Below, piece after piece: positions 41,515-44,065 of a stretch of 44,111 nt of DNA; position 1 is the first letter of the stretch, and each line of letters begins with the position of its first letter. The notes below the pieces were generated by a model, which saw nothing but the letters and a program-made list of their open reading frames with translations, was not told the origin of the DNA and searched no databases. The translations under genes and the position numbers were made by a program. Source of the stretch: a virus. Where the stretch lies: the IMG/VR virus record IMGVR_UViG_3300009079_001912, positions 1 through 44,111 of that record; one strand, given 5' to 3'.

Positions 41515-41724
41515 TTATGTAATATAGACTCTTAATACTGTACCTTCGATAGAATATGTAATTGTTTCACCAGGTTGTAGTTTTGCCTTAAACTCTCTGC
41601 CTTTGTTATCAATAACTTCAACAGTGTCTAAGTTATTCAATGCTTCAGCAGGTGTATCAGGCATATCAGGTAGCCCGATATCACCAAACTGTTCCATTAT
41701 CATACGTGTTGCATTATTACTCAT
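41515..41724 (-). CDS. Small unknown protein, 69 aa
   Basis: The ATG at 41724 has an AAAGG ribosome site and overlaps the upstream stop by 8 nt. It has a helical N-terminal third (MSNNATRMIMEQFGDIGLPD, then a PDTPAEALNNL stretch) and a beta C-terminus (VEVIDNKGREFKAKLQPGET and TYSIEGTVLRVYIT). No family recognised. It closes the HemE-side operon; 60 nt downstream a new promoter begins. Confidence 0.78.
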   Translation of the reverse strand: MSNNATRMIMEQFGDIGLPDMPDTPAEALNNLDTVEVIDNKGREFKAKLQPGETITYSIEGTVLRVYIT

Positions 41725-42439
41725 CGTTTTGCCTTTTTATCTCTGCCAATATTTGTTTACGGAAATTGTGTTGCTTAAATCTAGCATATGCTTCTTGTAA
41801 TGTAAATAGTTTCCTTCGTGTATGTTTAAGTTGTAGACAACTTAACATTAACTCTCGTAACCTACGTGTTTCGGAAAAATGGGATAGTTTAATATTTTCA
41901 TCAGTATCGGCTTTTAGGTAAAACAATATATCGCCTTGTTTTATATTAAGATTAATCTTTGGCATGTTTGGTCTGACAAACAATGCAGCCTGTATTGGTC
42001 TAAACCAATTACCAACATCAAAGGTGCCTGATATAGCATGTCCCGCATCTGTCCAGCTGTTATGATGTAAAAACGGATGTATAATTGATAAATTTAAAGG
42101 CTGATCGCAAAACACTACAAGATCAGTAGTATACTGTATTAAGCGATCATTAGCGAGGTTAACTAAAGATAAATGCCGATTAATGTATCCTTGATCACTC
42201 CCATCCCAAGACTCTGCTACTTGATCTATATCTACTTCAAAATCAAACCCTGCTTTAACTACAAATATTTTTTTCATGTCTTTAGTAAAAGCAGGACACT
42301 TACTGTATTCTGAATTTTTAATTTCAACAGGTAAATTTTTTGACAATGGCTCAAGACTTGTATATCCTAGTACATGACGTCCTGAAGGTTCTTCATCGTT
42401 TCCGACACCCGACATAAACCAACCGTAATTTAAAATCAT
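41717..42439 (-). CDS. Unknown protein after HemE, 240 aa
   Basis: Its start overlaps the HemE stop by 1 nt (TAATG), so the two are co-translated. The middle has VVKAGFDFEVDIDQVAESWD and LHHNSWTDAGHAISGTFDVG, then FRPIQAALFVRPNMPKINL and QGDILFYLKADTDENIKLSH, a beta-rich pattern like a jelly roll; the C-terminal 50 residues are basic helix (RKLFTLQEAYARFKQHNFRK). I recognise no family. Coupling to HemE suggests either a metabolic partner or mere phage compaction. Confidence 0.82.
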   Translation of the reverse strand: MILNYGWFMSGVGNDEEPSGRHVLGYTSLEPLSKNLPVEIKNSEYSKCPAFTKDMKKIFVVKAGFDFEVDIDQVAESWDGSDQGYINRHLSLVNLANDRLIQYTTDLVVFCDQPLNLSIIHPFLHHNSWTDAGHAISGTFDVGNWFRPIQAALFVRPNMPKINLNIKQGDILFYLKADTDENIKLSHFSETRRLRELMLSCLQLKHTRRKLFTLQEAYARFKQHNFRKQILAEIKRQNDE

Positions 42440-43413
42440 TAGCTAAACTCGTTGCGTATTTTGTTTATAAAATAGTGTACTCTGTCCTCCGGTGTTTCTT
42501 TATTGATACCGTGTCCTAGTCCACAAACCCATCCAGTACGATCCGGAATATCTTTCATTTTAGCAATAAACTCGTCTACTTTGCCACGGAACCTGTCTTC
42601 AGGAAGTAACATAAAGTTTTGATCAAAGTTACCTTGTATAAATCCGTCTTTCTTTTTGTCCATAATTGTTTCAATGTTAATTGATGCATCAAACCCAATA
42701 CCGCCCCACATCTTGTTTAGTACTAAATGTGACAAGTCAGTAGTTAGTCCTTTGCAGTAATATCCGCAATCAGGTCCAACAAGCTCGTTAAGCAATTCGG
42801 AATATGTGTCTCTTAAAAATGAACGCCCAAGTGTGTCTAGCCCGCTATCAATAATTAAAACTTTTTCAGCACCTGCATCTAATTGCAGTTGAATGTTACC
42901 TTGCAATAATGGAATAATTACTTCTTTCAGATAATATTTTTTAAAGTCCATGTGTGCTCTATAATCTACGCCGTAGTGCATAAGTGTCCACGGACCCCCT
43001 ACAAATCCAATAAGACTTTTGTCTGCTGGTAAAACATGTCGAGTTGCCCGAACAGCATCAGCTTGAAAGCCCATAAACTCAATGGCTCCGTTGATGTCTA
43101 AATAGTTTTCATAGTTTTCAGGCGTAATCAGTTCATTAAATTTTGGACCTGGATCAAAATCTAGTTGTAGTCCTAGTCCTTGAAAAGGATAAACAATATC
43201 GCTAAACAATATACTAACATCAAAATCAAACTCTTTAATTGGACCAAGAGCAACTTCGGCTGCAAGTTCCGGATTTTTTGAAAGTGTATCAAAAGTATAA
43301 GTTTGTTTAAGATTTTGATAATGACTATGATAACGACCAGCTTGTCTCATAAACCAAATAGGCGGACAACTCTGTGGTACTCGGCGGGATGCATTTTTAA
43401 ATTTTGTGTTCAT
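42439..43413 (-). CDS. hemE: Uroporphyrinogen decarboxylase (HemE-like), 324 aa
   Basis: HemE removes four carboxyl groups from uroporphyrinogen III to give coproporphyrinogen III in heme and chlorophyll synthesis. The signature PIWFMRQAGRY (18-28) gives Arg23 and Arg27; ILFSDI (68-73) gives the key Asp72; IGFVGGPWTLMHY (135-147) gives Tyr147; Ser190 lies in LIIDSGLDTLG; and GLGHGI near the C-terminus gives His301. GNFDQNFML matches the GNMDP motif. All expected active-site residues are present, so the gene looks functional; it is slightly short against about 345-355 aa for bacterial HemE, mostly at the N-terminus. It has a weak ribosome site. It lies in a phage operon between unknown genes, not at a host junction. 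Confidence 0.95.
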   Translation of the reverse strand: MNTKFKNASRRVPQSCPPIWFMRQAGRYHSHYQNLKQTYTFDTLSKNPELAAEVALGPIKEFDFDVSILFSDIVYPFQGLGLQLDFDPGPKFNELITPENYENYLDINGAIEFMGFQADAVRATRHVLPADKSLIGFVGGPWTLMHYGVDYRAHMDFKKYYLKEVIIPLLQGNIQLQLDAGAEKVLIIDSGLDTLGRSFLRDTYSELLNELVGPDCGYYCKGLTTDLSHLVLNKMWGGIGFDASINIETIMDKKKDGFIQGNFDQNFMLLPEDRFRGKVDEFIAKMKDIPDRTGWVCGLGHGINKETPEDRVHYFINKIRNEFS

Positions 43414-43425
43414 AATTGTAATTAT

Positions 43426-43602
43426 CTACTCTATGCGTACTTGAACACCAATATTGGATAACATTGTATCCGCAAGTTTAGTGTCAACTATATCGTCTTG
43501 TTCGTCTAGCGTATCGCACATCGATACTGTATCTATTGCTTCCCATAGTAGTCCGTGTGTACGATATGGTTGCGTCCATTTATGTTCCGAATGATAGTGC
43601 AT
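43426..43602 (-). CDS. Small acidic protein upstream of HemE, 58 aa
   Basis: The frame runs from the ATG at 43600-43602, preceded by AAGGAGTAAAC, to a TAG at 43426. It starts MHYHSEHKWTQPYRTHGLLW and is acidic in the middle (CDTLDEQDDIVD). It ends 12 nt before the HemE start, making it the first gene after the terminator at 43621-43650. No family recognised. The good ribosome site and operon position argue it is real. Confidence 0.72.
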   Translation of the reverse strand: MHYHSEHKWTQPYRTHGLLWEAIDTVSMCDTLDEQDDIVDTKLADTMLSNIGVQVRIE

Positions 43603-43620: not shown

Positions 43621-43650
43621 AAGTGTCTTGCTATTTAAAACAAGACACTT
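43621..43650 (-). terminator. Intrinsic terminator after the 77-aa gene
   Basis: Perfect 10-bp inverted repeat AAGTGTCTTG / CAAGACACTT with a 10-nt loop, followed on the minus strand by TATTTTT. It lies 5 nt beyond the stop of the 77-aa gene, and the HemE-side genes read on from it. Confidence 0.8.
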
Positions 43651-43655
43651 AGTAA

Positions 43656-43889
43656 CTACCCTTCAATCAAACAAAGTTTAACTTTAATCTCATAGCCTTT
43701 AGATTTAGCTACTTCGACAAGATCTCTCCGACGGCCACCGGACCAATTTCTCCAAGCATCGCCGATAACATCTTTTTCAAGACGTGCTTTACGCTTGATT
43801 GTGTTTTCATCGTTTTCGCTGAAAGCTACGAACCCGTCCATTTGTTGACCGTTCTTTGGATTGACTGAATATAAAATAGTTGATAGCAT
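43656..43889 (-). CDS. Small basic unknown protein, 77 aa
   Basis: The ATG at 43889 has an AAAGGAGA ribosome site. It starts MLSTILYSVNPKNGQQMDGF and has a basic middle (NTIKRKARLEKDVIGDAWRN, then a GGRRRDL run), ending EIKVKLCLIEG. Arg/Lys content suggests nucleic-acid or partner binding, unproven. It is the first gene after the near-consensus sigma70 promoter at 43943-43971 and is followed by a strong terminator, so it is probably an early gene. Function unknown. Confidence 0.8.
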   Translation of the reverse strand: MLSTILYSVNPKNGQQMDGFVAFSENDENTIKRKARLEKDVIGDAWRNWSGGRRRDLVEVAKSKGYEIKVKLCLIEG

Positions 43890-43942: not shown

Positions 43943-43971
43943 AGTATACTACAATTTGTATCTATTGTCAA
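43943..43971 (-). promoter_or_regulatory. Near-consensus sigma70 promoter
   Basis: TTGACA (43966-43971), 17-nt spacer, TATACT (43943-43948) on the minus strand. This is a strong host-type promoter for the 77-aa gene and, past the terminator, the HemE genes. The stretch 43890-43989 holds no gene, only this promoter and the leader. Confidence 0.85.
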
Positions 43972-43989: not shown

Positions 43990-44065
43990 TGGCACCGGTG
44001 GAAGGAATCGAACCCTCGCTGTCGCGGTTTTGGAGACCACCGCTCTACCACTGAGCTACACCGGC
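43990..44065 (-). tRNA. tRNA-Trp (anticodon CCA)
   Basis: A 76-nt cloverleaf can be folded by eye: 7-bp acceptor (GCCGGTG with CACCGGT, one G-U pair), D arm GCTC/GAGC, anticodon stem GTGGT/ACCGC with loop CTCCAAA, T arm GAGGG/CCTTC with loop TTCGATT, and encoded CCA end. Loop position 34-36 is CCA, reading UGG for tryptophan. It lies just beyond the sigma70 promoter. Confidence 0.95.

Follow-up and report, generated by a model that had tools for sequence, protein, structure and literature searches.

The window, which is the whole 44,111-base IMG/VR virus record (GC 36.6%), carries a gene that very probably encodes a genuine uroporphyrinogen decarboxylase (HemE). The enzyme would be active, of SAR11-type origin, and would boost the coproporphyrinogen supply during infection. 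We read the family, the fold, the active-site residues, the clade, the gene neighbourhoods and the purifying selection in the clade from the data, and we infer from there the activity, substrate, benefit, donor and host.

The hemE locus in the window

The gene is an intact single ORF (324 aa, ATG start), at the exact coordinates given in the initial annotation. The genes around it are of phage type, and its strand also encodes tail fibre, baseplate-connector and virion proteins. The features at the locus are the following.

41717..42439, minus strand: phage ORF of 240 aa, function unassigned (phrog_17480); its ATG overlaps the hemE stop codon (TAATG)
42439..43413, minus strand: hemE (uroporphyrinogen decarboxylase), key residues R23, Q24, R27, D72, Y147, S190 and H301
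43426..43602, minus strand: 58-aa ORF immediately before hemE; its AAGGAG, read from the sequence, resembles a ribosome-binding site
43621..43650, minus strand: terminator-like hairpin of 12 pairs followed by a T-rich stretch; it separates the upstream 77-aa ORF from the hemE unit
43656..43889, minus strand: upstream 77-aa ORF, preceded by a sigma-70-like promoter match
43943-43971: sigma-70-like promoter match TTGACA-17-TATACT, before the 77-aa ORF
43990..44065, minus strand: tRNA-Trp (CCA) at the window edge, same orientation as hemE

Judging from the overlapping codons, the 240-aa ORF is likely translationally coupled to hemE. Sequence inspection reveals no clear ribosome-binding site for hemE itself, so the gene may depend on translation of the 58-aa ORF. 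Four terminator-like hairpins were found in the region, versus 1.3 expected. The gene had been described as embedded in a phage operon. This is borne out only in part. Downstream, the hemE stop overlaps the start codon of the following phage ORF, but upstream there is the terminator-like hairpin at 43621-43650.

The T4 late-promoter motif TATAAATA was considered as a signal before hemE and rejected; it is absent there and has a single copy in the window. Over the whole window, 7.8 copies of this T4-type late-promoter core would be expected (sd 2.5) and one is present. It is strongly avoided, as if the motif were functional in the window virus.

Several metabolic cargo genes are present in the record. 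Between 31521 and 34956 there are, in succession, genes for a UvdE-type UV endonuclease, an FNR-like FAD/NAD oxidoreductase, a glycosyltransferase and a QueD-like 6-pyruvoyl-tetrahydropterin synthase. Relatives of this UvdE occur in large Erwinia, Dickeya and other phages.

Family, active site and fold of the window HemE

The Pfam URO-D profile (PF01208) matches the protein over its full length, residues 2-320, with 180.8 bits (E=4.9e-53; cut-off 23.9 bits). TIGR01464 hemE also gives a full-length match (189 bits, E=8.6e-56), below the curated NCBIfam hemE equivalog cut-off (302.95 bits). The solved relatives found by sequence are all uroporphyrinogen decarboxylases.

Residues R27, R31, D77, Y154, T209 and H327 of E. 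coli-type HemE align with R23, R27, D72, Y147, S190 and H301 of the window protein. These are the six catalytic residues listed in the initial annotation, and all of them are present. The R-Q-A-G-R stretch (E. coli 27-31) corresponds to R23-R27, within a MRQAGRY motif that is kept whole. The substrate and catalytic set of R-Q-A-G-R, Asp, Tyr, Ser/Thr and His is complete, and serine at the place of T209 is also present in other canonical HemE rows. All six residues are invariant in a 31-row viral alignment. In a larger set, Y147 is tyrosine in 41 of the 42 viral representatives and phenylalanine in 6 of the 26 cellular ones. Of about 80 positions that are conserved at 95% or more, the window protein deviates at only 4, and the active-site list includes none of these four.

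The AlphaFold model, built from the 31-row viral alignment, has a pLDDT of 90.4 and a pTM of 0.90. It predicts the UROD TIM-barrel fold. Foldseek ranks 24 UROD chains first and an MtaA-type methyltransferase next. A structural aligner gives UROD for every top PDB match, with Z 34-37 over 311-321 residues. The best of them reaches a Z of about 37 with an rmsd of about 2.1 over 317 residues, versus Z 31 for the MtaA-type methyltransferase. The BFVD viral structure library gave no match to the model at E 0.001. We rejected an identity as an MtaA/MtbA/CmuA-type corrinoid methyltransferase, with UROD preferred by sequence and fold (Z 36-37 vs 31). Neither sequence nor fold places the protein in the methyltransferase branch of the URO-D superfamily. 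The identification as HemE, made at the outset, is thus borne out by sequence, fold and residues, and also by the phylogeny given below.

The nearest cellular relatives belong to SAR11-type Alphaproteobacteria, SAR86, OCS116 and Bdellovibrio. In 16 genomes of these types, the hemE model finds exactly one match each, with 201-239 bits, always under the cut-off. In a sample of 58 genomes of the same class, 37 exceed the cut-off. Since the sole HemE of SAR11, SAR86, OCS116 and Bdellovibrio also fails, the cut-off appears to leave out a real HemE subtype. It is a database naming rule, not a biochemical definition. The pathway context suggests that those cells rely on the low-scoring subtype as their working HemE. 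In SAR11 the heme operon is complete, with the order hemC - hemE - hemH - hemF - hemJ-like and an AlaS-like gene nearby. Its other members encode porphobilinogen deaminase, ferrochelatase, coproporphyrinogen oxidase and a UPF0093 (HemJ-type) protein. In SAR86 the order is hemC - hemB - hemE - hemF.

The SAR11 HemC ORF (L033 1460-2992) has 510 aa, and its second half is without a HEM4 (HemD) match in Pfam. This half may be a HemD that has diverged strongly and become fused to HemC.

The viral clade and its tetrapyrrole genes

Two scans of IMG/VR contigs gave at least 87 distinct viral hemE loci, with 45-64% identity; the second scan retained the best 80 of 132 relative-encoding stretches. The viral HemE fall into 42 clusters, window included. 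In a 57-row tree, for which canonical HemE served as outgroup and no methyltransferase rows were included, all viral HemE form one clade (bootstrap 95 / SH-aLRT 95). This clade is sister to the one containing Pelagibacteraceae/SAR11 HemE (100/99), whose SAR11 label comes from one row named Pelagibacteraceae and from close grouping, most rows being titled 'uncultured Alphaproteobacteria'. The window HemE therefore groups with operonic HemE, that of SAR11 (100/99), which answers the phylogenetic question raised at the start. The window branch has a longer end branch, and its closest kin are L113 and L002, with the locus and neighbouring phage genes in common. The gene belongs to a widespread clade in uncultured marine viruses and is not peculiar to the window virus.

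Within viral clusters, the median dN/dS values are 0-0.26 and the largest is 0.30; these figures exclude the window's own branch, which is too divergent (its relatives are only 62-64% identical). On these values, the viral hemE clade is under purifying selection. With a clade of 42 representatives, phage neighbours and dN/dS of 0-0.3, hemE presents itself as a tetrapyrrole auxiliary metabolic gene, that is, a host-type metabolic gene maintained under selection in viral genomes.

Gene-family clustering places a 273-aa neighbour, identified as HemC, at 54 of 88 hemE loci. We then take 51 viral records, the window among them, which were selected for length and are not independent. At least one other tetrapyrrole gene is present in 34 of these 51. 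Most frequent are hemC (33/51) and hemF (20/51), followed by heme oxygenase (10/51), ferredoxin-dependent bilin reductase (FDBR, 9/51), alaS (8/51), hemB (7/51) and ferrochelatase (1/51). A family search for HemD (PF02602) found it in 0 of the 51, so these phages would depend on HemD from the host or else cope with the type I isomer. The sole record with a putatively phage-borne ferrochelatase is the L013 contig, which also carries alaS and hemE.

The viral hemC and hemF genes overlap or adjoin hemE, often in tight operons. Recurring lineage orders are hemC-hemE adjoining ribonucleotide reductase, hemF-hemC-hemE, and hemE-hemF-hemC, some after gp46/gp47-like genes. In the L140 contig, hemF-hemC-hemE-hemB are consecutive on one strand, with hemC and hemE overlapping. 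Its alaS is about 7 kb from the heme genes, and it also has a DNA ligase and a tail-spike-like protein. On the L124 contig, alaS and hemF-hemC-hemE are accompanied by overlapping genes for heme oxygenase and bilin reductase (L213 10858-12091). The viral HemF form one group in a tree without outgroup, which does not indicate the donor. In the window, L002 and L113, no other tetrapyrrole gene was found on 31-49 kb (44 kb in the window, 49 and 31 kb in the two relatives); all three are fragments.

The initial annotation contrasted hemE with the bilin genes of phages. Viral hemE is, however, often accompanied by hemC, hemF, hemB, alaS, heme oxygenase and bilin reductase. For this reason it joins up with the bilin genes and does not stand apart from them.

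At nine loci (L010, L011, L014, L017, L018, L031, L126, L132 and L139), hemE either lies directly between two genes of KDO synthesis, kdsA and kdsB, or follows kdsA without a kdsB. The nine constitute one viral HemE lineage, and hemC is not nearby. Heme and LPS genes are paired in this lineage. The names kdsA, kdsB, gp46/gp47, UvsW and gp41 are what we take these genes to be, as recognised from sequence and not from a database match.

Proposed role, rival explanations and known systems

The conversion of uroporphyrinogen III to coproporphyrinogen III is the step that commits tetrapyrroles to heme. The viral HemE would carry it out by decarboxylating the four acetate side chains. The ancestor of the viral clade most likely acquired hemE from the SAR11 (Pelagibacterales) lineage, and the gene would then have spread among marine tailed phages. 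During infection, the viral enzyme would increase the flow to coproporphyrinogen and on to heme. Many relatives would combine the step with phage HemC, HemF, HemB and AlaS. Sometimes phage heme oxygenase and bilin reductase would turn the heme into bilins, so heme may feed bilin synthesis. The missing steps (HemD always, ferrochelatase usually) would be left to the host. In the window phage, the HemE step alone is seen, in a 44-kb fragment.

The best reading of these gene sets is that the viral HemE is part of a modular phage heme/bilin pathway. We lean slightly towards a wider proposal. In it, the marine phages that infect SAR11-like hosts have between them AlaS, HemB, HemC, HemE and HemF. 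These cover most steps from glycine/succinyl-CoA to protoporphyrinogen, with only HemD missing, and some lineages continue to bilins via heme oxygenase and bilin reductase. HemE would then be one step of a rebuilt tetrapyrrole pathway, and more than a single added bottleneck enzyme. The relief of a bottleneck in host heme supply, suggested in the initial annotation, is plausible, and some viruses appear to take over much of the host heme pathway.

Several points count against a working heme enzyme in the window virus. They are the score under the NCBIfam cut-off, the lack of another tetrapyrrole gene in the window, L002 and L113, the kdsA-hemE-kdsB lineage, and the window branch, where relatives of 62-64% identity make dN/dS not measurable. 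The low score, together with a hemE that is solitary in the window clade and set between kdsA and kdsB in another, might suggest a repurposed URO-D-fold enzyme, with another decarboxylase or methyl-transfer substrate unrelated to heme; the MtaA-type methyltransferase shares the fold (Z 31). We hold this quite improbable. The MRQAGRY motif, D72, Y147, S190 and H301 are all retained, and the 4 deviations in about 80 conserved sites spare the active site. Moreover, the sole HemE of SAR11-type organisms scores equally low, and most other longer viral records have hemC, hemF or further pathway genes beside hemE. The gene could also be passing cargo on the window branch, formerly in a hemC/hemF module and now solitary, little expressed, marginal or on its way out. 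Its isolation on 31-49 kb in three contigs, the lack of a clear ribosome-binding site, the upstream terminator-like hairpin and the longer end branch are in line with this. However, the reading frame is intact with every key residue, conserved positions deviate little, and three diverged relatives retain the locus despite changing neighbours. As all these contigs are incomplete, further heme genes may lie elsewhere in the genomes. We consider passing cargo unlikely.

Some contigs in virus catalogues are misassigned, and the closest cellular relatives of these genes are bacterial hemE genes. Both facts would fit host chromosome mis-sorted as viral, which we judge to have a negligible probability. 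The viral copies form their own clade outside SAR11, and their gene order is unlike the SAR11 operon. Their neighbours are phage genes (gp46/gp47-like, RNR, UvsW-like, tail fibres and virion proteins, with gp23 on five records). Host contamination was rejected on clade, neighbours and gene order. The reading as a genuine viral HemE is the one we retain.

A tblastn search of 50,697 phage records gave 12 records for HemE and 10 for HemC. No isolated phage with hemE was found in this collection, the inspected matches being bacterial or unverified contigs. Two annotated HemE matches filed as phage, CAKLQF020000018.1 (L170) and AGRM01000005.1 (L169), are not phage copies, as bacterial chromosomal neighbours surround hemE; they are likely mislabelled. 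Two further matches are unverified, unannotated metagenomic or wastewater contigs and were not counted. In full-text searches, none of the papers found reports a uroporphyrinogen decarboxylase from a phage; supplementary tables and subscription papers, outside their scope, may list one. The view that such a decarboxylase is little described therefore agrees with both surveys.

Phage tetrapyrrole genes are known mainly at the ends of the pathway, with alaS at the start and heme oxygenase and bilin reductases after heme. The hemE gene, with hemC, hemF and hemB adjoining, fills the middle. This points to heme itself as something in which many marine phages invest; in very lean-genome hosts such as SAR11, it might be needed for respiratory cytochromes or to supply bilins. 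It also offers a testable case for why phages of non-photosynthetic hosts make bilins, with a defined gene set for assay.

Compared with canonical HemE (TIGR01464; human UROD, E. coli HemE), the window protein has the fold, the catalytic residues and a full-length alignment in common. On the other hand, the identity is 21-30%, the protein is about 20-30 residues shorter, and the score is under the curated cut-off. The HemE of the SAR11 and SAR86/OCS116/Bdellovibrio subtype is closer. It is likewise a short URO-D subtype (about 324-345 aa) with the same active-site residues, and the identity to the window HemE is 43-51%. In cells, the gene is part of a chromosomal heme operon that also contains hemH and a hemJ-like gene. 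In contrast, the viral copies lie among phage genes, in other gene orders and with a shorter HemC.

In phages, alaS, hemC and hemF have already been reported (alaS in PMC11480375, hemC and hemF in the available passages of PMC7029224); hemE has not, in searchable papers. In those passages, PMC7029224 describes coproporphyrinogen oxidase and porphobilinogen deaminase in a deep-water pelagimyophage, the same pathway and the same kind of virus as the hemE contigs. These hemC and hemF genes are probably the neighbours seen beside viral hemE. The word 'uroporphyrinogen' is absent from the text of PMC7029224 and hemE is not named. The same passages do not describe hemB, alaS and bilin genes, which hemE-bearing contigs carry. 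In its accessible part, PMC13184970 counts 'heme biosynthesis' among viral functions with the genes not listed. PMC11480375 presents phage alaS with heme oxygenase and bilin reductase; uroporphyrinogen III is named only as an intermediate, and a viral uroporphyrinogen decarboxylase is absent from its main text. Its alaS and hemO-pcyA/pcyX (PebS) bilin cassettes are, like viral hemE, phage tetrapyrrole auxiliary genes from aquatic metagenomes. The position of hemE differs, as it is mid-pathway, between ALA and heme. Nevertheless, alaS, heme oxygenase and bilin reductase of these types occur on hemE contigs too.
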